From: Lactiplantibacillus plajomi
GTDB taxonomy: Bacteria > Bacillota > Bacilli > Lactobacillales > Lactobacillaceae
Reading direction: 5' to 3'
Assembly: GCF_005405405.1 (NCBI RefSeq)
Contig: NZ_BJDZ01000012.1
Span: 1 to 64,000, forward strand
DNA length: 64,000 bases
How positions within the stretch are numbered: the first letter of the stretch is position 1; each line of letters opens with the position of its first letter. A program made the position numbers and the translations under genes. Positions 563 to 28,122 of this stretch are shown one piece after another. The notes beneath the pieces were generated by a model that saw only the letters and a program-made list of their open reading frames with translations, did not search any database and was not told where the DNA came from.

Positions 563-1954
563 CTAATTATCAAATTGGTTACTATCACTCAGCTGCTTAA
601 ACCAGCCCGCCGACTTTTTCAACGTCTTAGTCTGCGTGTGGATATCGTCGCGAATCAGACCGTAGCGGTTATGGTAGGCGTGGTTCCACGACCAGCAATC
701 GATCCCGCTCCAAACAAAGTAACCTAAACAGTTGGAACCGGCATCGATGCCCTTCGCTAACGCGGTCAGGTGGTCCTTCATAAAGTTGATCCGGTAATCG
801 TCCTGAACGACCCCGTCATCATTAAGAAAACGTTCTTCACCCGCAACCCCCATCCCGTTTTCTGAAATGAACCACGGGATATTATGGTAGTTCTCGCGAA
901 TGTTGTTCGCAATGTCGGTCATCGCCTGCGGATAAATTTCCCAACCGCGGTCCACGTTCATCACGCGTCCAGGCATCGCGTAGTCCTTAAAGTAGATGTC
1001 CGGGAACCACGGCTGGAGGCTCTTCGGGCTAATATCCGGTCGCTGCACGCGGAACGGGTGGTAGTAGTTCACACCCAGGTAGTCGACCGTGTTGGCCGCA
1101 ATAATTGTCGCTTCTTCCGGTGTCGCATCCCAAAGCACGCCATCACGTTTCAGGACCGTTTCCAACTCAGCCGGGAAGTGACCCAGAACGGCCGGATCCA
1201 GGAATAAGTTGTTCGACCATAACTCGGCGAACTTCGCCGCGGCTTGGTCGGCCGGATCATCCGACGCAGCGTAAGCCGGGGTTAAATTAATGATAATACC
1301 GATTTTTTTATCGTGACCCGGACACAACTGCCGAAAGGCCGCAATAACTTTGGCCGACGCCAAGTTCATGTTATACGCGACTTGGACCGCTTTCGGGCCG
1401 TCCTTTAAGCACGGATAGTGCCAACCATAGAGGTACTGACCGTCAACCACCACTTTCGGTTCATTGAACGTAAACCAGTCGTCGACCCGGTCACCGAACA
1501 GTTTGAAACACTGTTCGGCAAACTTCACAAATAGGTCGACAACGTGTTTGGACTCCCAACCGCCGTAACGATCGTACAGTTCAACCGGTAAGTCGAAATG
1601 GTGCAAGTTGATGTACGGCTTAATGTGGTGTGCCAACATGCTATCGATGACCCGGTTATAGAAGGCCACCCCGTCCGCGTTCAAACTAGCCGTTTCGAAA
1701 TCGTCAATTAAGCGGGTCCATTGAATCGACGTCCGCAGCCCCTTGATTCCGGCTTGCGCCATCAATTCCAAATCGTGGTCGTAGTCGTTATAAAAGTTCG
1801 ACGCCGTGTCCGGCCCAACGCCACTATCAAAGGCATCCGGTTCCGTTGCAAACCAGTAGTCAAAGACGTTTTGGTGCTGTTTATGGAAGTTACCTTCCGT
1901 TTGGGGTCCGGACGTCGCTGCACCCCAAATAAAGTCCTTTGGAAAAGTTACCAT
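563..1954 (-). CDS. GH1 family beta-glycosidase, atypical (no phosphate-binding Lys)
   Basis: Cytoplasmic glycoside hydrolase of family 1, 463 residues, full length and without signal peptide. The acid/base motif TFNEP (Glu165) and nucleophile motif ISENG (Glu365) are present. Relatives are usually annotated as 6-phospho-beta-glucosidase, but in the C-terminal phosphate-recognition motif (Ser..Lys.Tyr in LacG) Ser422 and Tyr431 are kept while the Lys is Asn429. It is the last gene of an operon starting 7 bases after a ROK sugar kinase, with GH38 and GH125 mannosidases upstream and no PTS gene nearby. This favours a non-phosphorylated substrate. A beta-mannosyl or beta-glucosyl core left after alpha-mannose removal is a hypothesis only. 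Confidence 0.85.
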   Translation of the reverse strand: MVTFPKDFIWGAATSGPQTEGNFHKQHQNVFDYWFATEPDAFDSGVGPDTASNFYNDYDHDLELMAQAGIKGLRTSIQWTRLIDDFETASLNADGVAFYNRVIDSMLAHHIKPYINLHHFDLPVELYDRYGGWESKHVVDLFVKFAEQCFKLFGDRVDDWFTFNEPKVVVDGQYLYGWHYPCLKDGPKAVQVAYNMNLASAKVIAAFRQLCPGHDKKIGIIINLTPAYAASDDPADQAAAKFAELWSNNLFLDPAVLGHFPAELETVLKRDGVLWDATPEEATIIAANTVDYLGVNYYHPFRVQRPDISPKSLQPWFPDIYFKDYAMPGRVMNVDRGWEIYPQAMTDIANNIRENYHNIPWFISENGMGVAGEERFLNDDGVVQDDYRINFMKDHLTALAKGIDAGSNCLGYFVWSGIDCWSWNHAYHNRYGLIRDDIHTQTKTLKKSAGWFKQLSDSNQFDN

Positions 1955-1961
1955 CGTTTTC

Positions 1962-2846
1962 TTACCCCGCTTTCGTTATTGACTGTTCAAAGTCGACCGC
2001 CGCACCACGCAGATTGGCTTCGTCAGTATAGTGACAAAGCGTTAACCGCGGCTTAATCGTCGCAATCTCGACTTGCTGATAAATGGCTTCCAGTGCTTTT
2101 TCAATTCCCGGAATCAACTGTGGGTTATTTGAAACCCCGCCACCGAGCACGATTTTTTCCGGGTCAAAACTGTATTGGAGGTTAAAGATGCCCTGGGCAA
2201 GCGCCGCGTACATCGTATTTAATTCACGCTGTGCGTCCAAATCGGCCTTGGCCGCTAAGGCGTAGAGCTCTTGACCGCTCATCGCCCCAGTCCGACCAGT
2301 CGCCGCTTGATAGCGCCGGATCGCGTTCGGAACGGTTCCCAGTTCGCTCAACGTCCCGTAGTCGTTAATTTTCGTGTACCCAAACTCGCCACCGAATAAG
2401 TGGGCACCGTGCCAAACCTGGCCGTTGAAAATCAACGCACCGCCGACACCGGTCCCAATCACCAGGAACGCTAGGCTGGTCACACCCTCAGCAGCGCCAC
2501 CATCCAATTCGGCTAAGGCCGCACAGTTCGCGTCGTTTTCTAAACTAACCGGTAAGCCGAAGCGGCTCTCCAATTCAGCTTGAATCGGGAAGTTATGAAT
2601 GTATGGAATCGCACTGGCCCCTTCAATGACCCCGGTCGTCTTGTTGACTGCTCCCGGTGAGCTGATGCCAACGCCCGTAATCGGTGCCTGCGCCTTCATC
2701 TTTTCAACCTCATCCGTTAATAAGGTCATGAACGCTTCCTTAGTTGCCGGCGTCTTAACGGCGTGGTGGTTCTTCAACTGGTGATCCTGCCAAAGGGCAA
2801 ACTTGATGGTCGTCCCACCAATATCAACGAGTGCTAAAGTTGCCAT
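1962..2846 (-). CDS. ROK family sugar kinase
   Basis: Predicted ATP-dependent hexose kinase, 294 residues. The N-terminal DIGGTTIKFALW phosphate-binding motif and the internal GTGVGGALI motif are typical of ROK proteins. The usual zinc-binding cysteine cluster is missing after the GGEFGYT segment, as in beta-glucoside-kinase-like ROK members. The ATG directly follows the TAG stop of the GH38 gene, with a ribosome binding site inside the GH38 end, so translation is probably coupled. It likely phosphorylates monosaccharide (mannose, glucose or N-acetylhexosamine) or a disaccharide released by the neighbouring glycosidases; the substrate cannot be read from the sequence. Confidence 0.85.
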   Translation of the reverse strand: MATLALVDIGGTTIKFALWQDHQLKNHHAVKTPATKEAFMTLLTDEVEKMKAQAPITGVGISSPGAVNKTTGVIEGASAIPYIHNFPIQAELESRFGLPVSLENDANCAALAELDGGAAEGVTSLAFLVIGTGVGGALIFNGQVWHGAHLFGGEFGYTKINDYGTLSELGTVPNAIRRYQAATGRTGAMSGQELYALAAKADLDAQRELNTMYAALAQGIFNLQYSFDPEKIVLGGGVSNNPQLIPGIEKALEAIYQQVEIATIKPRLTLCHYTDEANLRGAAVDFEQSITKAG

Positions 2847-5546
2847 CTACTTCGCCTCCGCATCTGGATAGAGCAGCGTCTTGATTTCTGCCGGCGCTAG
2901 TTGGTCAGCGGCAATGTCGAGCGGTTCCTCAAAGAAGTTGACCACTTGCGGTGTTTCACCCTTGAAGTCAACGTGTAAATCTTCGGCGTGGTGGCCAAGG
3001 TTGTACCCCCGGACCGTGACCCCGGTCGACTCGTTCGCCCGTTTAACACTCGTAATGGCAAAGGCCGGCGTAGTCGTCGTCAAATAGTGGCCTGTTTCCG
3101 GCAGTGCGCCACCATGAACGCCCGTTTGTTGAACGCTAAACGGTACTTGGACCGTTTGTGCCCGCTGGTAACTGGCAACCCGCTGGGCATGGCTGCCGTC
3201 GGTCAATTCCAAACTATAATGGAACGTAAATTCGCCTTGGCACTGGGCTTCCGGCGTAGCAAAGTAGCCCCAGTCGCCCATTTCGCCCACACAGCGCAGT
3301 AAGGTTACCGCAATCGTGTTATCATCCGGTAAAATTTCGTATTCGTTTAAGCCAAAGTTACCGACCGTGACCCCGTTATCCGCGTCAAACAAGCTGGTAA
3401 AGGTTTGCTGGTGTTGCGGGTTAGTTGGGTTTTGCCAAGTCTTAGCTGGCCGGTTCGGGCGGGTCACCGTTTCGTAAATCGCGTCGGTGGCGTTGGTCGT
3501 CGTATCCAAGTTGGTCGTGAAGCGTACCCGGACACGGTGATCCTTCATTTGATTATTTAACTGTGATTCGAACAACAACTGGCGGCTATTCGGTGTCAAC
3601 CGAATCCGGGTCGTAATCGTCAACGGCGCTAAGGTCGTAGAACGCTTAGCCGTCCGTTGGGTAATGTCGACAACCCCGTGGGTTTCCTTAGCCAGTTGGT
3701 CATCCGCACTAACCGGGACTTCCAAATAGTTCGTCAGTTCTAATTCACTACCCACCGCGTCGTTGTGGACGAGGCGCACCCGGCTTGGGAAGTCGGTCGA
3801 AAGTAGCGCCTGGTTATCCGCCGTTTGCCGGTAAATGTATTCGTTCCCCATGTCACCGGTGTCTTCAAAGACCAGCATCTGCTGATAAGTCCGACCGGTC
3901 TCACGGTTCGTAACCGTTAAGCTACCATCGGCTTCAACTTGGACCTTGAGCCACCGGTTGCTAATGGTACGGTCGTCCGCATCCGGTGCTGCAACCGGAG
4001 TCACCGCGGCTGTGGCCGGCTGAACGGCCAGTGCTTGCCAGCCGAACGCCGGTAGCTCCGCAACGTTAACGGCCAAGACCAGTTCGATCGACTGGTAGGC
4101 CACCCGGAAGCGGTCCTTCGGTAAGTCGTAGTGGAACTCGATGTTGCGGTCGACAACCCGGAACGGCACTTGCTGACCACTGGAATCAACTACGGTTAAC
4201 TCCGGCATGTCCGCTAATTCGCGTTCCAAGTCCGCGCGTTGTTCCTGAATCGTGCCGGCTTCGCTAAAGGCTCGCCGATCCCATTCGACCGTCACTTGGG
4301 CGGTACCGGACTTCGCAAAACCGGTCGTGTTAACGACGATAAACGGCTTCGCCGCCGAACCAAAGCCGGTGGTGGTGACCTTTGCCGCCAACGTTTCTAA
4401 GGCGTCCTTCGCGACAAACCGGGCCACTTCCTGCGACTTCGCAAAGCGGGTCAGCATTTCGCGGTGAACCGCGTCGACCGAACAGCCACAAATACTGTCA
4501 TGCGGGTGATTTTGCATCAATAATTTCCACGCGTAACGCAAGCGGTCGTGCGGGTAAGCGTTCGCCGGGTAGGCCATCGTTGCTAACGGTTCAGCCTGGT
4601 TTTCCAACAAGCGTTCCGTCTTGGTATTTTCCTGCTTCAAATAAACCCGACTAGACGACGTGTTGGCTAACGTGTACCAGCCGTCGGTTTCCTGACTGGT
4701 TAGTTCGCCGTGGATGGTACTCATATCCTTCGGCAAGTCCGCGCTGAGCGTCTTTAAATAATCAGTAAAGTTAGTATGAATAAATTCGTAGTCCGGGTAA
4801 AGTTCGTTAGCAACCTTGATTGCTTCGGTCACGTCTTTTTGAACCGGCTGGTGGTCGACCCCGTTCATCATTAGTAAGTTATCCGTCGAAGCGAACCTTT
4901 CCGCGTCGGCTAATTTTTGATCCCAGAAAGCCTTAGCTTGTTTGCGGTCGACCGGAATTTCGTTCCCGTTACTGTACCAGTTGGCAAAGAGTAGCCCTAA
5001 GATTTTTGAACCGTCGGGCCCCTGCCACCACATTTCGGAGTATTGGGACTCGTAGTCGGCGTCACTGACCTGGTTATTGAAGCCGGTTGGGGTGACCCCG
5101 CGGCCGAACGCCGCCGTGTGTAAGTTGGCTAACTTCATCATTTGCGGCGTCTGGCCCATGTTCCCGAAGGTGTCCGGGAAGTAGCCCAGTGGCACTTCCT
5201 GGCCGTATTCACGGGCCTGGTCGCGACCAACGATCATGTTACGGACGTTGGATTCCGGGCTGATCAGGAAATCGTCTTGTAAAATGTAAAACGGTCCGAT
5301 TCGGAGTTTGCCGGCTTGAATCGCCGCGGCTAATTCGGGTTTCCGTTCTGGCCGAACTTCTAGGTAGTCGTCCAGCGCAATCATTTGACCGTCTAAGTGG
5401 AAACTATCGAAGTCGGGGTCGTTCTTAAAAATATCCAATAAGTTGTCGATCAGGGTCACCAAGCGCATGTGGTGTTGTTCAAACGGCATGTACCATTCGC
5501 GGTCCCAGTGACTGTGGGAAATAATAAAGACTTTTTTCTTTGTCAT
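2847..5546 (-). CDS. GH38 alpha-mannosidase
   Basis: Exo-alpha-mannosidase of family 38, 899 residues, no signal peptide, so cytoplasmic. The zinc motif HSHWDREW lies at residues 11-18, the predicted nucleophile is Asp125 in PDTFGNMGQ, and the later NHPHDSICGC segment supplies another zinc-binding His. The C-terminal half has the beta-sandwich regions of the family. Its start lies 6 bases behind the GH125 stop codon and its Shine-Dalgarno AAAGG overlaps the GH125 end. In Streptococcus pneumoniae a GH38 enzyme with a GH125 and GH92 partner trims alpha-mannose from N-glycans; the same combination here suggests alpha-1,3-mannose removal (inference). Confidence 0.95.
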   Translation of the reverse strand: MTKKKVFIISHSHWDREWYMPFEQHHMRLVTLIDNLLDIFKNDPDFDSFHLDGQMIALDDYLEVRPERKPELAAAIQAGKLRIGPFYILQDDFLISPESNVRNMIVGRDQAREYGQEVPLGYFPDTFGNMGQTPQMMKLANLHTAAFGRGVTPTGFNNQVSDADYESQYSEMWWQGPDGSKILGLLFANWYSNGNEIPVDRKQAKAFWDQKLADAERFASTDNLLMMNGVDHQPVQKDVTEAIKVANELYPDYEFIHTNFTDYLKTLSADLPKDMSTIHGELTSQETDGWYTLANTSSSRVYLKQENTKTERLLENQAEPLATMAYPANAYPHDRLRYAWKLLMQNHPHDSICGCSVDAVHREMLTRFAKSQEVARFVAKDALETLAAKVTTTGFGSAAKPFIVVNTTGFAKSGTAQVTVEWDRRAFSEAGTIQEQRADLERELADMPELTVVDSSGQQVPFRVVDRNIEFHYDLPKDRFRVAYQSIELVLAVNVAELPAFGWQALAVQPATAAVTPVAAPDADDRTISNRWLKVQVEADGSLTVTNRETGRTYQQMLVFEDTGDMGNEYIYRQTADNQALLSTDFPSRVRLVHNDAVGSELELTNYLEVPVSADDQLAKETHGVVDITQRTAKRSTTLAPLTITTRIRLTPNSRQLLFESQLNNQMKDHRVRVRFTTNLDTTTNATDAIYETVTRPNRPAKTWQNPTNPQHQQTFTSLFDADNGVTVGNFGLNEYEILPDDNTIAVTLLRCVGEMGDWGYFATPEAQCQGEFTFHYSLELTDGSHAQRVASYQRAQTVQVPFSVQQTGVHGGALPETGHYLTTTTPAFAITSVKRANESTGVTVRGYNLGHHAEDLHVDFKGETPQVVNFFEEPLDIAADQLAPAEIKTLLYPDAEAK

Positions 5547-5552
5547 AATTAG

Positions 5553-6842
5553 CTACCTTTCAATTTTAAAACCTAGTGTCGTCAGCAATAATTCGCAATA
5601 CATCATGTTGGCCCAAGAGAACCATTCGCGGGTAAACTGATGGTCATCATCAACGTGGAACGATTCGTGCATTAAGTCGGTGCCACCGGTTGTCTTGATC
5701 AACGTCTGCAGAGCGGCCAACTGGTGGTCGCGACTACTAGTCGTCAGACCTTCCATGGCAATCGCAATCGGCCAGATATAATTTTCCGGCGTGTGGGGAC
5801 TCCCCTGACCAGCCGCTAAAGTTCCGCTATAATAGTAGGGATTTTCCGGACTCAGTAAGGTTTGGCGGGTCCGTTGGTAATTGGCGTCCTGCAAGTCGCA
5901 GTAGCCCAAGTACGGCGCACTGAGGAGGCTCGGGACGTTTCCGTCATCCATTAACTTGGCGTTGCCTAAACCGTCGACTTCATAGGCGTAAACCTTGTCG
6001 CCGTTCGCGTTAGTCGTGTAGCCGTACGTTTCGATTCCGTCACGGACGGTCGTCTGCAGGCGCTTAGCACGCGCAACAATTTCCGGATCGTCGAGTACGC
6101 TACTGAAAATCGTCTGTAAGTAACCAAGAATTACGACCGCAAACATGTTCGCCGGCACTAGGTAGCCGTATTCACAGGCGTCGTCACTCGGTCGAAAACC
6201 GGACCAGATCATGCCGGTATCGGCAACCGGTGTTCCGCGACCATCGCGAACCAAGGTATCTTCCGGCCGGTCAATCGTTCGAATAAAGCGGTATGGCGAG
6301 GTCGCGTGGTGTTGTTCAACTTCAAAGGTCGTCAACAATTTCTTGACCCCCGCTACGAAGTTATCATCAAACTGCGCGGTCACGCCGGTATTTTTATAAA
6401 GTAGGTAAGCGAGTTGTACCGGGTAACATAGGGAATCAATTTCAAATTTACGTTCCCAGATCCACGGGCCCATCTCCGTTTGGTCAGTTTGGTGACCGTG
6501 ACTGTTAGCGGTTTCATTAAAGGCGTTTGCGTAGGGGTCGATCGCCATGTTGAAGAACTGGCGTTGAACGACCCGCGTAATCAAATCAGCAATTTTCGGT
6601 TGTTCGTGGGCTAAGACGAGGTACGGCCGCACTTGGGCGGTCGAATCACGTTGCCACATGGCCGGAATATCCCCCGTTAAAATGAAAGCGTAGCCATTTT
6701 CGTCATCGGAAATCGTCGTTTCCAAGGTATTTAAGAACGTTTTTTGAAAGACCGTCCCAAACTTGGGGTCGAGCGGTTGACTGAGCTGGTCAACTTTAGA
6801 AACAAAGCCTTGAACTTGTGGATCAACGTAATTAGTCGTCAT
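5553..6842 (-). CDS. GH125 exo-alpha-1,6-mannosidase
   Basis: Family 125 glycosidase, 429 residues, cytoplasmic. The family hallmark GDIPAMWQRDSTAQVRPYL is near residue 57, followed by NSHGHQTDQTEMGPWIWERKF-type segments and the (alpha/alpha)6-barrel layout. Known members release terminal alpha-1,6-linked mannose from N-glycan cores. It is the first gene of a four-gene minus-strand operon with start context GAGGTGACAAA-ATG. The divergent GntR regulator gene shares its promoter region, which carries two palindromic operator candidates. Confidence 0.95.
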   Translation of the reverse strand: MTTNYVDPQVQGFVSKVDQLSQPLDPKFGTVFQKTFLNTLETTISDDENGYAFILTGDIPAMWQRDSTAQVRPYLVLAHEQPKIADLITRVVQRQFFNMAIDPYANAFNETANSHGHQTDQTEMGPWIWERKFEIDSLCYPVQLAYLLYKNTGVTAQFDDNFVAGVKKLLTTFEVEQHHATSPYRFIRTIDRPEDTLVRDGRGTPVADTGMIWSGFRPSDDACEYGYLVPANMFAVVILGYLQTIFSSVLDDPEIVARAKRLQTTVRDGIETYGYTTNANGDKVYAYEVDGLGNAKLMDDGNVPSLLSAPYLGYCDLQDANYQRTRQTLLSPENPYYYSGTLAAGQGSPHTPENYIWPIAIAMEGLTTSSRDHQLAALQTLIKTTGGTDLMHESFHVDDDHQFTREWFSWANMMYCELLLTTLGFKIER

Positions 6843-6858
6843 TTTGTCACCTCATATT

Positions 6859-6868
6859 TGATATATCA
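6859..6868. promoter_or_regulatory. Candidate GntR operator O1 (TGATATATCA)
   Basis: A perfect 10-bp palindrome located just downstream of the predicted -10 box of the GH125 operon, where a bound repressor would block transcription. Near-identical copies occur at 6945-6954, 17422-17431 and 34482-34491. Assignment to the GntR proteins is inferred. Confidence 0.5.
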
Positions 6869-6877
6869 TTTTCCATA

Positions 6878-6905
6878 ATTATACCATGGCTACCCCGGTT
6901 GTCTA
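6878..6905 (-). promoter_or_regulatory. Promoter of the GH125-GH38-ROK-GH1 operon
   Basis: On the minus strand, TAGACA (6900-6905) and a perfect TATAAT (6878-6883) are separated by 16 bases. Transcription would start next to operator O1. Confidence 0.6.
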
Positions 6906-6944
6906 TATCAAATACAACTTAATCTTCCCTTTTTTTCGTAAAAA

Positions 6945-6954
6945 TGATATATTA
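6945..6954. promoter_or_regulatory. Candidate GntR operator O2 (TGATATATTA)
   Basis: One mismatch from the O1 palindrome and 86 bases away from it, just upstream of the GntR gene. It overlaps a TATATT that may be the -10 box of that gene, suggesting autoregulation. Confidence 0.45.
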
Positions 6955-6988
6955 AATAATAACTTAACCCGAGAGAAAGGACCTCGCC

Positions 6989-8050
6989 ATGCCAAAGTCA
7001 GAACCACGTTACCTTACTATTTATAAACAGTTAAAAGAGCAGATCGTGTCGGGGACGCTGCAACCCAACGAACAATTACCGACCGAATTGCAGTTGGCCG
7101 ACACTTACGGGGTTAGTCGCATCACATCCAAGCGGGCCCTGACTGAGTTGGAAAGCCGTGGTCTAATTTATCGTAAGCAGGGTAGTGGGAGCTTCGTCCA
7201 ACCGAACAACCAGTTAACGCCCAATAAGCAACTGCTGTTCGTCCTGCCCTTCCCGACCGATGCCGGTCTGGGCGACTACGCGTCCGGCGTCAGCATCGCC
7301 GCCAATCGTCACCACTACCAAGCGGTAACGATGGACACCCATAGTTTCGCCCGCTTATCAATGACGGAGATTCGGCACAAGTATTCTGGGATCATCTACT
7401 TGCCGCAAGACTTGTACCAAGAAGCCGAATTAGTCTACCGTTTGAAGCTCGAGCGCATTCCGGTCGTCCTGCTTGATAAGTTATTCCCCGAGTTAGAAGT
7501 CCCGGTCGTCACCGCCGATAACTTCAACGGCGGGCAGTTGGCCACCCAGCATTTAATCGATTTAAAGCACCAACACATTCTATTTTATGCGAGTGCCCAA
7601 CCGGTCCTACCAAGCTCGGTTTACGACCGCTACTTTGGTTACCTTAAAGCCCTGCACCAAGCCAACTTGGCGCCGGCTGCCACCATGCACGACCTACCGG
7701 AACTCGGACACTTCACGCCCGAAGCCTGGTTGATCTACTTAAAGCAGCGTCACATTACTGCCATCGTGGTTGAAAATGACTTGGTCGCCATTAACTTGAT
7801 GAACAGCCTGCGGGCACTGGACCCGACCATTTGGGAACGGCTATCGATCGTCGGCTTTGATAATATTCAAGCCGCTAGCCTAACGTTCCCGTCCCTGACC
7901 ACGATTGCCCAGGATTTCAAGGGCATGGGCGAACGAGCTGTCGAGCTCCTGCTTAGCAATCCTAAGGAAGCTAGTGTCGTTCGCCTTCCAGTTCAACTCA
8001 TTCAACGTCACTCAACTCAACCACTTAATTTAAACCATCGGGAGGATTGA
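6989..8050 (+). CDS. GntR-family regulator with LacI-type sugar-binding domain
   Basis: Transcription factor of 353 residues. Residues ~5-72 form a GntR winged helix (YKQLKEQIVSGTL, then the recognition-helix region YGVSRITSKRALTEL). Residues ~78-345 form a periplasmic-binding-protein-like effector domain as in LacI and AraR, ending with the PVQLIQRHST segment. It starts at an ATG behind GAGAAAGGACCT. It is divergent from the GH125 operon and 3 bases upstream of the GH92 gene, so it probably controls both transcripts and responds to a mannoside or its degradation product. A close paralogue lies at 34574-35629 with an identical recognition helix. Confidence 0.9.
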   Translation: MPKSEPRYLTIYKQLKEQIVSGTLQPNEQLPTELQLADTYGVSRITSKRALTELESRGLIYRKQGSGSFVQPNNQLTPNKQLLFVLPFPTDAGLGDYASGVSIAANRHHYQAVTMDTHSFARLSMTEIRHKYSGIIYLPQDLYQEAELVYRLKLERIPVVLLDKLFPELEVPVVTADNFNGGQLATQHLIDLKHQHILFYASAQPVLPSSVYDRYFGYLKALHQANLAPAATMHDLPELGHFTPEAWLIYLKQRHITAIVVENDLVAINLMNSLRALDPTIWERLSIVGFDNIQAASLTFPSLTTIAQDFKGMGERAVELLLSNPKEASVVRLPVQLIQRHSTQPLNLNHRED

Positions 8051-8053
8051 ATC

Positions 8054-10189: not shown

Positions 10190-10205
10190 AATCGTAATTT
10201 AGTAG

Positions 10206-10244
10206 AAAAACGCTAGTCAGCAAAGATTGTTGACTAGCGTTTTT
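10206..10244. terminator. Bidirectional terminator between GH92 and LPxTG genes
   Basis: A 14-bp stem (10206-10219 with 10231-10244) begins with five A and ends with five T, so it can terminate the plus-strand GH92 transcript and the convergent minus-strand LPxTG gene. A short TTAAG repeat follows at about 10270-10288. Confidence 0.8.
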
Positions 10245-10291
10245 CATTAGGGTTGTACATTTATCTATTCGTTAAGTTAAGTTAAGTTAAC

Positions 10292-17469: not shown

Positions 17470-17557
17470 TATTGAATGGGCACCTTGTACAAAATGCCGG
17501 CAAAGTTCCGGTCAATATACCAAAAGTGCCCACTAACGCAGCGTGTGACATACCAAG

Positions 17558-20190: not shown

Positions 20191-20797
20191 CTAACATCTG
20201 ATCGATTTTTTCATACCAGTGCTTGGATAAAATATCCGCGACCACCATGTAAATACCGGGGCTCATAAAGAGGATCATCCCCGGCCACTTCATGGAGATC
20301 ATAATCATGATCGCGGTCATCACGACGAACACTAGCAGTTGCATAAAGTTATTAAAAAATTGAACGATGGCTAATTTAATGGCGTCTTTGAAAGCGACGT
20401 CGTAGTGGGACCGCAGCATTAACGTGAAGATGGCTAGGCAAAAATCAAATAGCAGTGCAAACACGATAATGAACTGACTAAAGATCACCCAGTAAGCGCC
20501 CCGAATCTGAGTACTCAGGTACAGGTTATAGGCTAGAATCGCGCCGGCACCAATGAACAGCCAAGCGTGTAAGTTGATTTGCCAGAAATTGGTTTTAAAA
20601 CGGTGCCAGCCGTCCTTAAAACTATATAACCGGTAGTCCCATTCCTTATCCATGTACATTTCCGTTACCGTACGGGCGGCCGGCCCGATTCCGAAGATGA
20701 CCAACCCGGCGACGGTGTAAATCCAAAAGTAAACTGACATGATCAAAACGATAAAGACCCGGGTAAAAATTTTATCCGCTGCGCGTCCAATTGACAT
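20180..20797 (-). CDS. YesL-like DUF624 membrane protein
   Basis: Integral membrane protein of 205 residues with about five hydrophobic segments. YesL/DUF624 proteins are commonly encoded beside YesMN sensors and LplABC-type sugar importers; their role is unknown, possibly in transporter or sensor assembly. The start ATG follows GAGGGGG by eight bases, and the gene lies 13 bases behind GH13 and overlaps the kinase gene. Its stop TAG is inside the kinase start region. Confidence 0.8.
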   Translation of the reverse strand: MSIGRAADKIFTRVFIVLIMSVYFWIYTVAGLVIFGIGPAARTVTEMYMDKEWDYRLYSFKDGWHRFKTNFWQINLHAWLFIGAGAILAYNLYLSTQIRGAYWVIFSQFIIVFALLFDFCLAIFTLMLRSHYDVAFKDAIKLAIVQFFNNFMQLLVFVVMTAIMIMISMKWPGMILFMSPGIYMVVADILSKHWYEKIDQMLGAA

Positions 20798-20810
20798 GTT
20801 TGATTCCCCC

Positions 20811-22442
20811 TCATTCCTCTGTTATGTCTAAAATCATTGCTTCGTACGGCCGTAACTGCACCGTGCCCAACTGGGTCGGTGCGTCCGGATAATTGGCGAT
20901 GATCACCTTAGCGGTTTTTGCCGGTAAGGTCACCATCGTCGGTGCGGCCGTGAAGTTGCTACAAATTAACCAGCGGGTCGTCCCCAGTGTTCGGGTGTAC
21001 GCGAAGACCGTTGCTGGGACGTTGGCTAGGGCGTAAAAGCGACCGGTTTGGAGGACCGGGCACGTCCGCCGTAGCTCAATCAGCCGTTGGTACGTGTAAA
21101 ATAACGAACCCGGCGTGGTAACCGCGGCGTCCACGTTAATCGTGCGGTAGTTAGGGTTAACTGCCAACCACGGCTGGCCGGTCGTAAAGCCGGCGTTTGC
21201 CGCCGGCGACCACTGCATTGGTGTGCGGGCGTTGTCGCGGCTAAAGGTGTTGAGCTTCGCCATTGCTTGCGCCGCTGAATCACCACGTTCACGTAACTGC
21301 CGGTAAATCGTGCGGGCCTCAACGTCGTCAACTTGGTCGATTGACGTGACTGGGCAGTCGGTCATCCCGATTTCTTCACCCTGGTATAAGTACGGCGTCC
21401 CCTTCAACCCGTGTAGCGTGATGGCCAGCATCTTGGCACTCAGTTCCCGTTGCGGACCGGTCGTGCCAAAACGCGAGACCGCCCGTGGTAAATCGTGGTT
21501 ATTCCAGAATAGACTGTTCCAGCCGCTAGTCGCCAGCGTCGTTTGATCATCATACAACGCCTGCTTCAACTGCCCCACGTCGAGCGGGCGGGTCTCCCAC
21601 TTCTCACCGCCAACTTTGCGGTCCGCCCACATGTGGCCGAATTGAAAAATCATGCTAAGTTCTTGGTGAGCGGCGTCGCTATACTGCAACGCGTCCTTAG
21701 GCCCGGCACTCCAAGCTTCGCCGACCGTTAAGAAGTCGCGGTCGCCCCAGGTCCGGCGGTTCATTTCGTGCAGGTACTCGTGCAGGTGCGGACCGTTGAC
21801 CTGAATTTTTTTGAGCGGCTCCTTGGCGATCATATCGATGACGTCCATTCGAAAGCCCCCGATGCCCTTGTCGATCCAAAAGTTCATCATGTCGTAGACC
21901 GCCTGCCGGAGCTTAGGGCTTTGCCAGTTCAAGTCAATTTGCTTTTTTGAAAAGAGGTGCAAAAAGTACTGGTGGGTCTTGGGTTCATATTCCCACGCCG
22001 AGCCGCCGATAAAGCCCGACGTTAAGTCGTTAGGTTCGTGGCCGTCGACCGGGTCGGCCCAGACGTAGTAGTCGCGGGTCGCAGCGTCACGATCCTGCTT
22101 GGCACTCACGAACCAGCGGTGTTCATCACTCGTATGGTTAACAACTAGGTCCATCACGATGCGGATCCCGCGTTGCCGGGCTTCGGCAATTAAGCGGTCC
22201 ATATCGGCCATCGTCCCGTATTCCGGGTTAATCGCCTGATAATCCGCAATGTCGTAGCCGTTGTCGGCGTTCGGGCTTTGATAAACCGGACTGAGCCAAA
22301 TTGCGCCGACGCCCAGTTGTTGCAAATAATCAAGCCGACTAATGATGCCCGCTAAGTCCCCAATGCCGTCACCGTTACTATCCTGAAAGCTGCGGGGGTA
22401 AATTTGGTAAACGACGGCGCTTTGCCACCAGTGTTTCGTCAT
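20811..22442 (-). CDS. GH13 oligo-1,6-glucosidase / alpha-glucosidase
   Basis: Cytoplasmic GH13 enzyme of 543 residues. Catalytic residues are Asp200 (GFRMDVID), Glu242 (FLTVGEAW) and Asp317 (WNNHDLPR). The residue after the nucleophile is Val201; in GH13_31 enzymes Val at this site goes with alpha-1,6 preference, while Thr or Ala goes with alpha-1,4. I chose the ATG at 22442 because the upstream AAAGG abuts the alternative ATG at 22451 but is nine bases from this one. It sits between the importer lipoprotein and the YesL-like gene, so isomalto-type or glucosylated oligosaccharides may be part of what the importer carries. Confidence 0.9.
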   Translation of the reverse strand: MTKHWWQSAVVYQIYPRSFQDSNGDGIGDLAGIISRLDYLQQLGVGAIWLSPVYQSPNADNGYDIADYQAINPEYGTMADMDRLIAEARQRGIRIVMDLVVNHTSDEHRWFVSAKQDRDAATRDYYVWADPVDGHEPNDLTSGFIGGSAWEYEPKTHQYFLHLFSKKQIDLNWQSPKLRQAVYDMMNFWIDKGIGGFRMDVIDMIAKEPLKKIQVNGPHLHEYLHEMNRRTWGDRDFLTVGEAWSAGPKDALQYSDAAHQELSMIFQFGHMWADRKVGGEKWETRPLDVGQLKQALYDDQTTLATSGWNSLFWNNHDLPRAVSRFGTTGPQRELSAKMLAITLHGLKGTPYLYQGEEIGMTDCPVTSIDQVDDVEARTIYRQLRERGDSAAQAMAKLNTFSRDNARTPMQWSPAANAGFTTGQPWLAVNPNYRTINVDAAVTTPGSLFYTYQRLIELRRTCPVLQTGRFYALANVPATVFAYTRTLGTTRWLICSNFTAAPTMVTLPAKTAKVIIANYPDAPTQLGTVQLRPYEAMILDITEE

Positions 22443-22540
22443 GTCGACCATCCTTTCAATACTTGCCTAAATTAGTTGGTGCTATGTAGACAAAGAAGTC
22501 GTAGTGCCCAGCACCCGACTTCTCTGCAAATCATCATGAA

Positions 22541-24010
22541 TTAGTTCTTGTCAAGAAAGGCGTCGTATTGCTTCTGCAATTCTTTTTGAACCTTGTCATA
22601 ACCGGCCGTCTTCAATTCCTTATCCATCTTCTTGATGGTTGGTACTGGATCGGCAGTCCCGGTATTCAAAATATCGAGGTACTTACTCATGACGTTATTT
22701 AAGTTCGTGATTTCAGTCTTAAGCTTGCTGGTATCTGGGTTGAAACCAAGGGCAGCTGAAGTCTTGGATTCCTTAATGTCCTTGTCACGTTTCTTGATCA
22801 TCGCGTTAGTCGTCGTATCAAGCGTGTACAAGTTCTTGTTGTTCCCCATCATCCAAGCACCGATGAAGTAGTTTGGTTTGTACTTCTTAGTAAGTTTGAT
22901 CTTACCCTTTTCTTTATCGGTGAAGTTCCATTGTTGACCTTCAAGACCCCAAGTAATGTTGTTCAATAAGGTCTTATCCGTGTTCAACAGGTTCAAGACT
23001 TGCATAGCTTCCTTCTTGTGCTTAGAAGTCTTGGAAATGCTCCAAACCGCAACTTGGGCTTGTGCAGAGGACTTGTAAGGGTCGGTGATGGCTTTCGATT
23101 GCATCTTCTTACCACCGGCGTTGTTGATCAAGGTTGAATCGCCGTAGTCGTAAGGACCTTGGGTTTCTTGACGTACGAACCAAGTGTTATCTTGCAAGTT
23201 GTATTGGGTACTTGAAGTAGCCGCATCCTTAGGAATGTAACCCTTTTGGTAGTAGCTGTGCAAGGTCTTCAAGATATCGCGCATTTCGGTGGTATCGTAA
23301 GCGTTAACGACCTTCTTGCTCTTACCACTTGAATCGATGGCGAATGGTAGCCCGTTACCCAGCGGGAAGTCCATGTGGGCTGGGGAAGCTTTGAAGCCTT
23401 GACCAATGGCAAAGCCGGCCGTCCCAGGGTTTTGCTTGTGGAACTTCGCCAAAGCGGGTTCCATGCTTGCGTAGGAGTTAACGTCGTTAATATTAATATT
23501 ATATTTCTTAACAAATTCTGAATTGAATGTTAACATGTTTTGCGCGTAAACGTTGGCGTTGATTGGGAAACCGTAGATCTTATTGTTAATCTTCAAGCCT
23601 TTCCAGTAAGCTGGATCGACTTCTTGGTAAGCCTTCTTTGCAACGCCACTCTTTAATTCACTGGTCATATCGGCGTAAGCGCCCTTTAAAGCGTTATTAG
23701 TGTAGTTTTGGGAGAAGGCTAAGTCGTAGTCGTTCCCTGAAGTGACCATAACGTTATATTTCTGGGTGTAGTCCCCCCAGCCGATAAAGTTCATCTTGAT
23801 GTTGATGTTCTTGTAGGTCTTGTGGATCCGGTTGTTAGCCTTCTTAATCATTGCATCATAGTTCTTCGGCTTATCCCCCGGCATATACATGCTGACCGTT
23901 GTCTTCTTTGAAGAATCGGAGCTTGAGTTGGACTTGCCACAACCAGCAAGTGCAATGGTTCCTAACGCAGCGATACTGACAACCGTCGCGCCCTTCAATA
24001 ATTTATTCAT
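22541..24010 (-). CDS. Sugar ABC transporter solute-binding lipoprotein
   Basis: Extracellular lipid-anchored binding protein of 489 residues. The signal ends in the lipobox IALAGC, followed by a Ser/Lys linker and a two-lobed solute-binding domain (IKMNFIGWGDYTQKYN, SGNDYDLAFSQNY, then a C-terminal DUF3502-like region). The second ATG (24010) is nine bases from GGAGG and preferred over 24019. Size and neighbours resemble NgtS of the pneumococcal N-glycan importer NgtS-P1-P2 and other LplA-type proteins. The ligand is not readable from the sequence; mannose-rich oligosaccharides are the contextual guess. Confidence 0.9.
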   Translation of the reverse strand: MNKLLKGATVVSIAALGTIALAGCGKSNSSSDSSKKTTVSMYMPGDKPKNYDAMIKKANNRIHKTYKNINIKMNFIGWGDYTQKYNVMVTSGNDYDLAFSQNYTNNALKGAYADMTSELKSGVAKKAYQEVDPAYWKGLKINNKIYGFPINANVYAQNMLTFNSEFVKKYNININDVNSYASMEPALAKFHKQNPGTAGFAIGQGFKASPAHMDFPLGNGLPFAIDSSGKSKKVVNAYDTTEMRDILKTLHSYYQKGYIPKDAATSSTQYNLQDNTWFVRQETQGPYDYGDSTLINNAGGKKMQSKAITDPYKSSAQAQVAVWSISKTSKHKKEAMQVLNLLNTDKTLLNNITWGLEGQQWNFTDKEKGKIKLTKKYKPNYFIGAWMMGNNKNLYTLDTTTNAMIKKRDKDIKESKTSAALGFNPDTSKLKTEITNLNNVMSKYLDILNTGTADPVPTIKKMDKELKTAGYDKVQKELQKQYDAFLDKN

Positions 24011-24104
24011 AGCTTTCATCCTCCTCAGGATATTAGTTTATTGAACTACCGCTTTTAGTTGGTGGTTAATTTCGGATAGCGTTTTCAATTTCAAGTGCTA
24101 CCGA

Positions 24105-25031
24105 TTACCCCTTGACCCCACCAATGGTCATCCCTTTAACAAAGTACTTCTGGAAGAATGGGTAAGTTAACGCAATTGGCAAGGTGGCAACCACAACGAT
24201 GGCAAAACGCATCCCTTCGCTTGGCACGTTAGCTGCACCGGCTACGGCTCCATTATTCGCCATGTTTTGCGTCATAAACTGAATGTTATTTTGAATCTTA
24301 ACTAACAAGTATTGTAACGGTGTAACGCTGTCCTTGTTGATGTACAGCAAGGCGTTCATCCAGTCGTTCCAGTAACCGAGCGACGTGAACAAACTAATCG
24401 TCGCAATCCCTGGAATTGCCAGTGGCACAACGATTGTCCAGAAAATCTTGAACTCGCTGGCCCCGTCGATCCGGGCCGATTCGATAATTGGTTCCGGAAT
24501 CGACGTTTTGAAGAACGTCCGCATGATCAACACGTTGTAAACCCCAAAACTCATTGGCAAAATCAAGGCCCAGATATTATCTTGCAAGCCCAACATTTGG
24601 GTCACGATCAAGTAAGTCGGAACCATGCCGGGAACAAACAACATTGAAATCAAGGCGAAGATGGTGAAGAACCGCGCGTAGGCAAAGTCCTTCCGTGAAA
24701 TCGCGTAAGCATAAGTGGAACTAAACAAACTGTTCATAATCGTCCCGACAACCGTGACAAAGATGGTAACCCCTAAGGAAACCAGTACTTGGTGTCCCAT
24801 TTTGGATAAGTACTGGTAACTGGCAAAGGTCCAATGCTTCGGCCAGAACTGATAACCATAAGTCGTGATATCTGATTCCTGCGTCAACGATAAAATAATG
24901 ATGAAGAAGAATGGCAGAATACAACTTAGGGCAAAGATACCGAGAAAAATGTTGAAAAACAGGTTGGCGCCAGGTCCGAACTTGCGGATTTCAACTGCTG
25001 TAATTTGCTTCTTTTTACGCAATGGCGTCAC
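24105..25031 (-). CDS. Sugar ABC transporter permease (LplC/YtcP type)
   Basis: CUT1 permease of about 305 residues with six transmembrane segments and the EAA loop (ESARIDGASEFKIFWTIVVPLAIP). The longest frame starts at GTG 25031, but GGGGGTG before a TTG at 25022 makes the latter a better start. It follows the partner permease by 3 bases. It forms the membrane channel with the 326-residue permease and is driven by the MsmK-like ATPase. Confidence 0.92.
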   Translation of the reverse strand: MTPLRKKKQITAVEIRKFGPGANLFFNIFLGIFALSCILPFFFIIILSLTQESDITTYGYQFWPKHWTFASYQYLSKMGHQVLVSLGVTIFVTVVGTIMNSLFSSTYAYAISRKDFAYARFFTIFALISMLFVPGMVPTYLIVTQMLGLQDNIWALILPMSFGVYNVLIMRTFFKTSIPEPIIESARIDGASEFKIFWTIVVPLAIPGIATISLFTSLGYWNDWMNALLYINKDSVTPLQYLLVKIQNNIQFMTQNMANNGAVAGAANVPSEGMRFAIVVVATLPIALTYPFFQKYFVKGMTIGGVKG

Positions 25032-25034
25032 CCC

Positions 25035-26015
25035 CTAAAATAGTGCTGATTCTGGTTGCTTGCGACGAACGACCCAGTTGCTGATAAAGATCAGTAACGC
25101 ACCGACGATGGATTGTAATAACCCGGCGGCCGTTGACATCCCAATATCGTTAGTCGTTGTCAAAGCACGGTAAATAAAGGTATCGAACGTTTGGGTCACG
25201 TTGATCAGTGCCCCTGAAGAACGTGGAATCAAGTAGAACAGCCCGAAGTCACTCCGGAAGATCCCCCCGATGTTCAAGATCAACATCAGCGTGGCAACCG
25301 GTAAGATATGTGGCAAGGTCACGTTCTTAATTTGTTGCCACTTGTTGGCACCATCGATCATCGCCGCGTCGTAGTATGACGGGTCGATTCCCATGGCGGT
25401 CGCGAAGTACAGGATACTGTTGTAACCGATCCCTTTCCAAACCCCCAGGAAGATGATGATAAACGGCCAGACCCACGGTGAGTTGTAGAAGTCGATTGGC
25501 GTTCCGCCCATCGCTTGGATCATGTGGTTCAAGATCCCCTTATCAGAGCTCAAGAAGGCGTAAACGAAGTACGACAGGATGGCCCATGACAGGAAGTACG
25601 GGAACAACATTGACGTTTGGTAAACCTTGAGGAGCCGCTGATTCCGCATCTGACTCATAACGACCCCAAAGAAAATGGCGAAGAAGAAATTCAGTAGCAG
25701 GAACGTCAAATTGTACCCGACCGTGTTACGGAGAACGAGCCAGAAGTCGGCCGACTTGAAGAAGAACTTAAAGTTCTGGAAGCCAACGAACGGGCTGTGC
25801 AACACACTGTAAATAAATCCTTGATCTGAATACTGGAAATCCTGGAAGGCCACAACGTTGGCCAGCACCGGAATATAGAAGAAAACGATTAGAAAGATCG
25901 ATCCTGGTAAAACCATTAGTAAAAATACCCGGTTAGCCCACAATCGCTGGAAAAAGTTCAGGTCTGGCTTTTGCGAGACCGGAACTGGATCCGTATTCGT
26001 AACACCTTGTGTCAT
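25035..26015 (-). CDS. Sugar ABC transporter permease (LplB type)
   Basis: CUT1 permease of 326 residues with an N-terminal cytoplasmic tail and six membrane spans; the EAA-loop segment is YDAAMIDGANKWQQIKNVTLP. It is the first gene of the importer operon (permease, permease, lipoprotein, GH13, DUF624, kinase, ROK kinase). The ATG is placed behind AAAGGAGGGAGAAACG. A cre-like box overlaps its predicted promoter. Confidence 0.92.
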   Translation of the reverse strand: MTQGVTNTDPVPVSQKPDLNFFQRLWANRVFLLMVLPGSIFLIVFFYIPVLANVVAFQDFQYSDQGFIYSVLHSPFVGFQNFKFFFKSADFWLVLRNTVGYNLTFLLLNFFFAIFFGVVMSQMRNQRLLKVYQTSMLFPYFLSWAILSYFVYAFLSSDKGILNHMIQAMGGTPIDFYNSPWVWPFIIIFLGVWKGIGYNSILYFATAMGIDPSYYDAAMIDGANKWQQIKNVTLPHILPVATLMLILNIGGIFRSDFGLFYLIPRSSGALINVTQTFDTFIYRALTTTNDIGMSTAAGLLQSIVGALLIFISNWVVRRKQPESALF

Positions 26016-26049
26016 CGTTTCTCCCTCCTTTCATTTAATTACAGCTCTA

Positions 26050-26078
26050 ATAGTAACCGCTTTCTTTTTTGGCAACAA
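26050..26078 (-). promoter_or_regulatory. Promoter of the importer operon with overlapping cre box
   Basis: On the minus strand, TTGTTG (26073-26078) and TACTAT (26050-26055) are 17 bases apart. A cre-like AGAAAGCGGTTACT lies between and over the -10 (26052-26065), so CcpA could block the promoter directly. The promoter is weak by consensus, which suits activation by a regulator. Confidence 0.5.
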
Positions 26079-26146
26079 TCCACGTATTTAAGGTAATTGT
26101 TAACAAATTTAAGGTTTTAAAAAAATTAGGTATATTTTTTATACTA

Positions 26147-26199
26147 AAACCGACAATTACGATTATTATTACCTCTAAAAAAATCGTAATTGTCGGTTT
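26147..26199 (-). terminator. Terminator of the GH20 gene
   Basis: A perfect 18-bp stem (26147-26164 with 26182-26199) with a 17-base loop and U residues after it, 73 bases beyond the GH20 stop. It separates GH20 from the importer operon. Confidence 0.7.
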
Positions 26200-26271
26200 A
26201 ATTGACAGTTTAAGTCTTTATGTTCAATTAACTAAACATGTTTCCACTAAGTTGGTATAGGTGCCGTACCT

Positions 26272-28122
26272 TTAGAACGACAAGTCACAGGCACTAACGA
26301 TTTGCTTATACAACCCGTGGCCAACGATACCGTTATTGAACTTATCCATTGGTAATAGCGGTTCTTGCAACTCGGCCAGCTGGTCATGGCCCAACCGCCA
26401 TTCTTGAATCCGCCAGCTAACGGTCGCACAGCGCATAAACTGCCCGCCTAAGCGAACGTCGATGACTTCGTAGCCGTTACCGCGCCGTTGGTCATGCCAG
26501 ACCGTCCGGAACGCGGGAATAAACGTCTCTAAGGCTTGTCGGTAAGTGGCTACCGCCTGCAACGCACGCTCGGCTTGCGCATCGTCGGCATCCGGTTGGC
26601 CTAAACTGGCCACCGCTTTTAGCGCCCGTTGCTTGGCCAGTACCGTTTTTGCGAGTTGCCGGTAAAAGGTTAAGGTTACCCGGTTTTCCGGCCGTAGTTG
26701 GACTTGGCCCAGTTGGGTGATCAGGTCCTGATACTGGCTTTCGAGGTCGATCGCCTGTAAGTTCTGCCGGTACTTTTGTAATAACAAATCTTCGTATAAG
26801 ACAATCTTGCTGACGTTGTCGGCGTCGACGTTGACCTTGCCGGTGAAGTTATCGAACTGGTCTAACAAGTGGTAGAACGTCGGGGCTTCGCCCTGGGTCA
26901 GCGCGTACTCGGCATCGATGGTCGCCGGCGTAACGTCGGCGTGGTACTGGTAAGCGGCGAACGCTTGCAACCCGTACCAGGCCGCGCTTAACGGTACTTC
27001 GGCACCATCATCAAACCACATGGTCGCAACCACTTGTTGCACGCCACTGGCCTTGGCCGCGCTCAATCCGGCCTTAACCGTCGCCATCATCTTACTTTGG
27101 TCGGGCGCCAGCGCACTCCAAGTCCAGATGCCACCCGCAAAGACCACGTTATCACTAAGTTCGAAGTGTTGCGCAAAGCGGTCACGGTAAGTTTGTTCGT
27201 CTTCGTGGTAGTAGTCCCAATAAACCTGACCAACCGGTGGCAGGCTCGCCTTAAAGTCGGCGTCAAAGTGCACGTCCGGATCATACATTTCGTTTTTCGG
27301 TGAGGCAAAGGTGAACCACAAATCACTCCACATGTAAGCGTCGAGCCCCAATTGCTGGGTCAACCCGACCACCATTTTTAATTGTTCCAAAATCAGGGTC
27401 TGCTGGTCGGTAAAGCCGTTTTGATCCAAATAGCGCCCGCGGCCTAACTGGTAAGCTTCGTCCATCCCAATATGAATCTTGTTGGTCGTAAACGGCGCGC
27501 TGGCCGCCTTGAGTAAGTGGGTCATAAACGTCTTGGTTGCCGGCGCCCCGACTAACAAGGTGTCGTCGGTATCCTTAACTGGATTATGGGCTTCCCACTT
27601 CAACGCGTTATGCATGTGCGCTAAGGTTTGGACCGCCGGCACCAACTTAACCCCGAACTGGTCACCGTACACGGCAAGTTCGTGCAGTTCGGCCTGCGAA
27701 TAACGGCCACGTTCGCGCCCAAAGTACGGTTCTTCCGGAATTTCAAATAAATCTTCTAAGTATAACCACAGTTCGTTGTAGCCCATGCTGGCTAACCGCC
27801 GGATCATCCGTTTGATCATCGCAACCGTCGGTACCCCGTTACGAGCAACGTCCAGCATCGCCGCTAACACTTTAAACTGCGGCGTTTGTTGCAGGTCGAA
27901 CTGCTCGGTCGTCTGCGCTTTGGCACTTAATAACGCGGCTCCGCGCATCAAATCAGTCGTCGTACCGTACGTTAAGGTCGCCTGCCGACCATCGCGGCTG
28001 AGTTTAACGCCGCTAGCCCCCTGCTGGCAGGTCACCGTTAAATCCAGCACCCGCGTTTCGGGTAAACAAACGGCGGACACCGCCAACCGTTGCTCCGCAC
28101 TTAATCCACGCCATTCAATCAT
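26272..28122 (-). CDS. GH20 beta-N-acetylhexosaminidase
   Basis: Family 20 exo-hexosaminidase, 616 residues, no signal peptide. The catalytic Asp221-Glu222 pair is in IHIGMDEAYQLGRGRY; the family's N-terminal domain and (beta/alpha)8 barrel precede the substrate-assisted active site, and a helical C-terminal region is present. The layout resembles the cytoplasmic GH20C of Streptococcus pneumoniae, which has broad beta-hexosaminidase activity. It would remove GlcNAc (or GalNAc) from imported glycan fragments. It has its own promoter region with a cre-like box, and its ATG is behind AAGGAGGAAGAATAGC. Confidence 0.9.
   Translation of the reverse strand: MIEWRGLSAEQRLAVSAVCLPETRVLDLTVTCQQGASGVKLSRDGRQATLTYGTTTDLMRGAALLSAKAQTTEQFDLQQTPQFKVLAAMLDVARNGVPTVAMIKRMIRRLASMGYNELWLYLEDLFEIPEEPYFGRERGRYSQAELHELAVYGDQFGVKLVPAVQTLAHMHNALKWEAHNPVKDTDDTLLVGAPATKTFMTHLLKAASAPFTTNKIHIGMDEAYQLGRGRYLDQNGFTDQQTLILEQLKMVVGLTQQLGLDAYMWSDLWFTFASPKNEMYDPDVHFDADFKASLPPVGQVYWDYYHEDEQTYRDRFAQHFELSDNVVFAGGIWTWSALAPDQSKMMATVKAGLSAAKASGVQQVVATMWFDDGAEVPLSAAWYGLQAFAAYQYHADVTPATIDAEYALTQGEAPTFYHLLDQFDNFTGKVNVDADNVSKIVLYEDLLLQKYRQNLQAIDLESQYQDLITQLGQVQLRPENRVTLTFYRQLAKTVLAKQRALKAVASLGQPDADDAQAERALQAVATYRQALETFIPAFRTVWHDQRRGNGYEVIDVRLGGQFMRCATVSWRIQEWRLGHDQLAELQEPLLPMDKFNNGIVGHGLYKQIVSACDLSF

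Follow-up and report, generated by a model that had tools for sequence, protein, structure and literature searches.

A probable N-glycan catabolic locus of the pneumococcal CPL and NgtS kind in Lactiplantibacillus plajomi

Lactiplantibacillus plajomi contig NZ_BJDZ01000012.1 carries, at positions 563-28122, a cluster of mannosidase, kinase and importer genes that we read as a locus for the cytoplasmic catabolism of N-glycans. The sequence analyzed, hereafter the window, is a 64-kb stretch of a 2.76-Mb genome that is 99.99% complete; 20 window proteins were scanned, and domain calls are Pfam matches at the cut-offs. From left to right, the minus strand encodes a glycoside hydrolase of family 1 (GH1), a ROK protein (ROK1), a GH38 and a GH125 enzyme, after which a GntR/LacI-type regulator and a GH92 enzyme lie on the plus strand. 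From position 10292 on, the minus strand again carries the genes: an LPQTNE surface protein, YesN, YesM, MsmK, a second ROK protein (ROK2), a second YesM, a DUF624 protein, GH13, a solute-binding protein (SBP) with two permeases, and GH20C. The preliminary description had placed GH38, GH125, GH92 and GH20 enzymes, two ROK kinases, a CUT1 importer, MsmK and a GntR regulator here, and every one of these families is found over its Pfam cut-off. The GH1 and GH13 enzymes, the two YesM-type kinases, the interrupted YesN-type regulator, the DUF624 protein and the LPQTNE surface protein are additions to that set.

GH38 (2847-5546), of the alpha-1,3-mannosidase type, contains five Pfam domains and matches PDB entries 3lvt and 2wyh at 1086 and 1063 bits. 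A mannosylglycerate hydrolase was considered for this gene and rejected, as the corresponding profile reaches 464 bits where 1138 are required, while both PDB GH38 matches exceed 1060 bits (phmmer). GH125 (5553-6842), of the exo-alpha-1,6-mannosidase type, scores 502 bits in Pfam and 528 bits against 3qpf; GH92 (8054-10189), of the alpha-1,2-mannosidase type and with a TTG start, scores 415 bits in Pfam and 674 and 564 bits against 6dwo and 5swi. GH20C (26272-28122), of the exo-beta-N-acetylhexosaminidase type, has the Pfam GH20 and GH20C C-terminal domains, matches 5a6b at 264 bits and keeps the DE pair. The reading frames of the named families are full length and align with solved homologues end to end or nearly so. 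The active-site motifs of GH125, GH92 and GH20C are the same as in the aligned structures, and the best solved matches of the locus enzymes are presumably enterococcal and streptococcal proteins, with 2wyh being the S. pyogenes GH38. GH38 also keeps the equivalent of the acid/base Asp232 named in the SpyGH38 paper (PMC2815779). By eye, none of the glycoside hydrolases of the locus carries a signal peptide, and the SBP has a lipobox.

The SBP (22541-24019) is an NgtS-type lipoprotein with a DUF3502 domain. It matches the NgtS structures 5swa, 5mlt and 5suo at 387-395 bits (395 for 5swa), the next family scoring 41 bits, and it is 43% identical to NgtS. The parallel previously drawn with the pneumococcal GH38/GH92/GH125/GH20 enzymes and the NgtS-P1-P2 importer therefore stands, the closest solved proteins being presumably streptococcal or enterococcal and, for the SBP, NgtS itself. 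Both Trp81 and Trp386 (NgtS numbering) are kept; these are named as sugar contacts of NgtS, whose pocket buries Man-beta-1,4-GlcNAc with Trp386 stacking on that disaccharide (PMC5215778). Taken with the match to NgtS, the two retained Trp residues place the locus with the pneumococcal CPL and NgtS kind. Two CUT1 permeases with BPD domains (24105-25031 and 25035-26015, Pfam) follow the SBP, and an MsmK/MalK-type ATPase (16229-17356, Pfam) presumably serves the importer.

We assign a probability of roughly 0.75 to a cytoplasmic N-glycan catabolic locus of this kind. In the pathway that we propose, the lipoprotein would bind free mannose-rich glycans ending in one GlcNAc (Man(x)GlcNAc), which the two permeases and MsmK would import. 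GH92 would then trim alpha-1,2-mannose, GH38 alpha-1,3-mannose and GH125 alpha-1,6-mannose, while GH20C would take off beta-linked GlcNAc or GalNAc. The free mannose would be phosphorylated by ROK2 (17558-18424; Pfam ROK), a ScrK-like fructokinase by its best NCBIfam profile (342 bits, cut-off 400) and likely a mannokinase, as has been suggested for ScrK in the pneumococcus (PMC7075642). More tentatively, for the last step, ROK1 would phosphorylate the leftover Man-beta-1,4-GlcNAc on C6 of the mannose, and GH1 would split the product into mannose-6-phosphate and GlcNAc. Substrate, import, trimming order, sensing, the mannokinase and the end step are each predicted from relatives; gene content and residues are what is seen directly.

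The substrate would be sensed by the GntR protein and a YesM/YesN system. The former (6989-8050, Pfam) combines a GntR domain with a LacI-type sugar-binding (effector) domain and is divergent from GH125; a match of at least 35% is present in 38 of the 43 named Lactobacillales loci, which form part of the best 80 of 132 relatives kept in our scan. The latter comprises a YesM-type histidine kinase (14595-15965, Pfam) and a YesN-type response regulator (13127-14602, Pfam), with a further YesM-type kinase, bearing a HAMP domain, at 18424-20190 (Pfam). We take the pneumococcal two-component system TCS07 to be of the same YesMN type. An in-frame stop in the YesN gene separates the receiver portion from the AraC portion; 11 of 12 compared relatives have the gene as one frame, L006 being the exception. 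This counts against the proposed pathway, in that no intact YesN-type regulator was found in the locus, which makes expression in this strain unsure. Should the stop be real, the GntR protein may be left as the sole basis of induction. A search of the intergenic gaps for palindromes with exact arms found no operator common to the mannosidase and import blocks.

The locus kind is neither rare nor new to lactobacilli. Of 396 Lactobacillaceae genomes (the family sample, which overlaps with an order sample of 395 Lactobacillales genomes), 55 carry GH125, and these fall into 10 of 38 genera. Within the genus of the window, 16 of 21 genomes have it, one as a fragment only, and the GH125 of the window is 82-91% identical to that of eight loci, seven of them from Lactiplantibacillus. 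The co-location check proposed earlier was run: GH125, GH38, GH92 and GntR stand together in 34 of the 43 named Lactobacillales loci (from the best 80 of 132), and in 20 of the 43 the NgtS-type importer gene is also on the same piece of at most 21.3 kb. L005 and L006 have a second GH125 copy, 48-49% identical, just past GH1. The claim that no well-described equivalent exists in lactobacilli overlooks the S2 Fig legend of Robb 2017 (PMC5215778), which names Lactobacillus plantarum, of the same genus, with a CPL-type locus holding further ORFs, and which lists regulators, sensors and a truncated transposase across three species. Four L. plantarum strains are credited with GH20, GH38, GH92 and GH125 in a genome paper of 2026, and GH85 is listed for three of the four (PMC13095006). 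Together with the GH125 survey, these two sources exclude a rare and undescribed locus; this kind of locus is already known and drawn for the genus. The terms mannosidase, GH38 and GH125 do not occur in a 2018 review on host-glycan use by lactobacilli (term search, PMC6109692). Our literature search, largely without subscription papers, yielded no functional work on this locus in lactobacilli. Among the named GH125 carriers are genera known as food or plant isolates. For this reason, we draw no host niche from the statement that GH125 and GH38 are absent from free-living lactobacilli (PMC8461469).

Two rival accounts of the locus as a whole were weighed. Lactobacilli share niches with yeasts, as is generally known, and the substrate could be yeast mannoprotein or alpha-mannan fragments in place of N-glycan cores. 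In a gut Bacteroides, GH92, GH38 and GH125 also act on yeast alpha-mannan (PMC10154615). We nevertheless consider such a substrate unlikely, because the SBP is NgtS-like with the disaccharide-stacking Trp386 in place, and because GH20C and the link of GH1 and ROK to endo-beta-GlcNAcases elsewhere fit better with a GlcNAc end. The locus could also be two unrelated ones, the mannosidases at 563-10189 and a separate sugar-import locus at 16229-28122, given that the blocks are parted by a gene for a surface protein and by regulator genes spanning 3 kb, and that GH13 adjoins the SBP. However, the two blocks adjoin each other in L007 and L008 and share one piece in the 20 of 43 loci noted above, and the SBP of the import block is the NgtS-like one. 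The surface protein (10292-12418; sortase-type LPQTNE motif, Ala-/Gln-rich) has no Pfam match, and none of the fetched loci has a match covering 35% of it, so that it looks like a local insertion. We regard a chance neighborhood of two loci as very improbable.

The N-glycan reading can be set against the systems it resembles. The CPL of Robb 2017 consists of GH20C, ROK, GH38, GH125, GH92 and GH29, is linked to NgtS-P1-P2 and EndoD, and has similar loci in other Firmicutes (PMC5215778). With the S. pneumoniae version (SP_2141-2146), the window shares GH20C, ROK, GH38, GH125, GH92 and the NgtS-type importer. In the pneumococcus, MsmK is suggested as the ATPase of NgtS-P1-P2 (PMC5215778), and the system is controlled by TCS07, whose regulon comprises NgtSP1P2, EndoD, GH20, ROK, GH38, GH125, GH92, BglA3, ManA and ScrK (PMC7075642). 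The genes that are scattered there form one physical locus in the window, which includes MsmK, GH1, the ScrK-like ROK2, GH13 and a GntR/LacI-type regulator but has no GH29 among the scanned proteins (the search being confined to those 20), and no EndoD/GH85 or other tested endoglycosidase is in the genome. A general scan of the same 20 proteins gave no GH76, the endo-mannanase family of Bacteroides-type yeast mannan loci; no GH76 search of the genome was made. The S. pyogenes GH38 operon (Spy1604 with the GH84 Spy1600) likewise joins GH38 to a GH1, two sugar transporters, regulators and a histidine kinase; it differs in its GH84, and GH92, GH125 and GH20C are not named for it in the sections available (PMC2815779). 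Closer to hand, the Companilactobacillus loci L024, L026 and L030 have the same modules as the window, including GH1, ROK1, MsmK and a YesMN-type system, and differ in an added EndoS-type GH18 and in that ROK1 does not adjoin GH1.

The preliminary description had called the locus complete, and in this it went too far, since a known release step is missing. Profile searches of the genome for GH85, GH18 and the EndoS TIM barrel were all negative (PNGase was not searched). With the tested endoglycosidases absent, the cell probably relies on glycans already released, and these probably come from other microbes or are free in plants or yeasts. Plant tissue contains free N-glycans ending in GlcNAc1. 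With free glycans taken up, GH92 would have a purpose inside the cell as well; for the pneumococcus, Robb et al. argue that an intracellular SpGH92 would never meet a substrate (PMC5215778). Some relatives are better equipped. GH85 is present in 8 of the 396 family genomes, six of them with GH125 and one (G234) with a stop-interrupted copy, and in L129 a signal-bearing GH85 lies between MsmK and the permeases of a full locus. The EndoS-type GH18 of L024, L026 and L030 stands beside the locus and is 43-44% identical to that of another Lactobacillaceae locus, L112; the L024 protein scores 292 bits in Pfam and has a signal-like N-terminus, and N-glycan release by these three themselves is probably possible. 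In Firmicutes, the EndoD homologue is only sometimes inside the locus and often co-occurs with it (Robb 2017, PMC5215778).

We now turn to the end of the pathway. For lack of any candidate beta-1,4-mannosidase in S. pneumoniae, Robb 2017 could not say what becomes of Man1GlcNAc (PMC5215778), a gap restated in 2018 (PMC6160142), and the published TCS07 model stops at ManGlcNAc, with no step given to BglA3 and ROK in the sections available (PMC7075642). According to a 2023 review, enzymes that cut the Man-beta-1,4-GlcNAc bond are known from families GH2, GH5_18 and GH130 (PMC10154615). Our profile search found no GH2 and no GH130 in the genome, and its four weak GH5 matches (one over the cut-off) look like GH1, with NE and ENG in all four and S...KRYG in three. 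No paper was found for the term phospho-beta-mannosidase, and the literature search, largely without subscription papers and often limited to parts of the texts, turned up nothing linking BglA3 or the GH1 clade to Man-GlcNAc.

The GH1 of the window (563-1954; Pfam GH1, 377 bits), a candidate (6-phospho-)beta-glycosidase for this bond, carries the clade motif as DCWSWNHAYHNRYG and has the NEP and ENG motifs. Its best PDB match is 5naq (936 bits), followed by 4b3k and 5foo (664 and 663 bits), the next scoring 326; 5foo was deposited as a 6-phospho-beta-D glycosidase. We take 5naq to be the L. plantarum enzyme Lp_3629 and 4b3k to be SPy1599 of S. pyogenes; the enzyme of 4b3k and 5foo, a member of the same clade as the GH1 of the window, is presumably the GH1 of the S. 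pyogenes GH38 operon. The title of Stepper 2013 reportedly calls SPy1599 a 6-phospho-beta-glucosidase. The operon description lists its GH1 as a putative beta-glucosidase (PMC2815779). ROK1 (1962-2846, Pfam ROK), a candidate kinase for the residual disaccharide or else for GlcNAc or mannose, is nearest BglK in NCBIfam (145 bits, cut-off 550) and finds 2gup (195 bits) and then the beta-glucoside kinase 4htl (131 bits) in the PDB; all four ROK1-type proteins checked, the window included, have BglK first at 145-161 bits against the same cut-off. The scanned locus proteins include an ATP-binding cassette (ABC) importer and no phosphotransferase system (PTS), so that a phospho-glycosidase would have to rely on a kinase, for which ROK1 beside GH1 is the candidate.

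Association statistics link this GH1 clade to GH125. Membership in the genome counts is a match at E ≤ 1e-100, the motif being read in the fetched loci, and the p-values (Fisher) ignore shared ancestry. The clade occurs in 68 of the 396 family genomes and in 41 of the 55 with GH125 (p 9e-26); outside the genus of the window, it is in 26 of 39 GH125 genomes (p 9e-17), and in 24 of the 41 family genomes with both it lies within 20 kb of GH125. In the order sample, 180 of 188 genomes with GH125 have it versus 92 of 207 without (p 1e-31), the figure outside the family being 173 of 174 GH125 genomes. All eight GH85 genomes of the family carry it (p 5e-7). We also compared 64 GH1-clade loci, hand-picked from the matches rather than sampled at random, leaving out the window, the short loci L082-L111, sequence duplicates, and matches below 40% identity or 80% coverage. 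The motif D[CN]WSW...Y.NRYG is present in 64/64, the S. pyogenes structure having G for C/N, and ROK1 is adjacent in 28 and within 4 kb in 29. In a GH1 tree built by a quick method (SH-aLRT support only; GH125-linked labels assigned by us, that of L165 from importer genes alone; rows L146 and L148 dropped as no single open frame was found), the GH125-linked sequences are spread over several sub-clades, with 9 changes, at least 6 of them forced, so that the link between GH1 and GH125 is not one inherited block.

Some GH1-clade loci carry PTS genes. In L112 (at ~4717-14038), a putative PTS-fed N-glycan operon of the Lactobacillaceae consists of EIIC, GH38, GH125, ROK, GH1, EIIB, EIIA and an EndoS-type GH18 with a signal sequence; L113 and L114 have the like, the EndoS-type match of L113 being in two pieces. 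Two loci whose genomes lack GH125, L123 (scanned with Pfam) and L150, have EIIC, GH38, GH1, ROK, EIIB, EIIA and GH85 in one cluster. GH1 and ROK thus accompany endoglycosidases of two unrelated kinds in L112 and L123. The GH38 proteins of L123 and L112 are nearer mannosylglycerate hydrolase (638 and 670 bits, cut-off 1138) than that of the window. In nine of the ten loci L132-L141, PTS Lac/Cel-type genes accompany ROK1 and a GH1 67-71% identical to that of the window, with no GH38 or GH125; the L132 cluster has a SASA-type esterase in between.

Several observations weigh against the proposed end step. Of the phosphate-binding Ser...Lys.Tyr triad of GH1 6-phospho-beta-glycosidases, the GH1 of the window keeps Ser and Tyr, but Asn stands in place of Lys, here as in 64/64 clade loci; this Asn is shared by the structure deposited under the name 6-phospho-beta-D glycosidase. 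ROK1 is not on the fetched piece in 4 of 21 loci with GH125 and GH1 (L003, L017, L018 and L131), and it is also found in PTS loci, where the disaccharide would come in already phosphorylated; a kinase of GlcNAc or mannose is on these grounds about as likely. GH125 occurs without the GH1 clade in 14 of 55 family genomes, and the clade without GH125 in 27. Across the 64 loci, PTS genes lie within 9 kb in 29, an NgtS-type importer in 9 and neither in 26, and 21 of the 29 PTS-linked loci have no GH38 or GH125 on the piece. The clade is thus broad and not specific to N-glycans.

An alternative is that ROK1 is a GlcNAc or mannose kinase, GH1 is a plain or phospho-beta-glucosidase for another sugar, and Man-beta-1,4-GlcNAc is wasted or cut by another enzyme; we hold it to be a serious contender, if itself short of even odds. 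The nine ROK1-GH1 pairs in PTS loci without mannosidases would fit it, as would the report of Lp_3629 as a weak beta-galactosidase with no 6P-beta-galactosidase activity detected and the 6P-beta-glucosidase activity stated for 11 L. plantarum GH1 proteins (PMC10360150). Against it stand the co-occurrence of the GH1 clade with GH125 and GH85 and its co-location with endoglycosidases. The pneumococcal BglA3, which the title of Terra 2016 reportedly names a 6-phospho-beta-glucosidase, may count against it as well, since BglA3 belongs to the N-glycan regulon (PMC7075642). On balance, we put the action of the window GH1 on Man-beta-1,4-GlcNAc at even odds, and the identification of ROK1 as the kinase of this disaccharide somewhat below that. 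More tentatively than for GH1 itself, we propose that clade D[CNG]WSW...Y.NRYG GH1 proteins, as 6-phospho-beta-mannosidases, and a BglK-like ROK may form the missing end step of Lactobacillales N-glycan catabolism, with the PTS-fed version of L112 doing the same in place of an ABC importer.

The GH13 alpha-glucosidase (20811-22451; Pfam, NCBIfam and PDB matches) is glucan-1,6-alpha-glucosidase-like or TreC-like: its nearest PDB chains are glucan-1,6-alpha-glucosidases, and as a trehalose-6-phosphate hydrolase it scores 643 bits with TIGR02403 (cut-off 799) and 609 bits with the subfamily model PRK10933 (cut-off 535). A DUF624 membrane protein (Pfam) is encoded at 20180-20797. Beyond the locus, two overlapping frames at 28795-29636 (minus strand) look like one frameshift-split protein of the metallo-beta-lactamase fold, with a weak Pfam match, under the cut-off, on the downstream piece only.

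Gene content, family membership, the conserved catalytic and NgtS-contact residues, the absence of the tested endoglycosidases and the association statistics are features of the sequences themselves, and they outline a pathway that has been studied mainly as a virulence-linked trait of the pneumococcus and is spread through many lactobacilli. Genes dispersed in the pneumococcus lie together here, so that GH1 and ROK1 can be named as candidates for the cleavage of Man-beta-1,4-GlcNAc. Some lactobacilli retain the import and digestion half of the pathway only.

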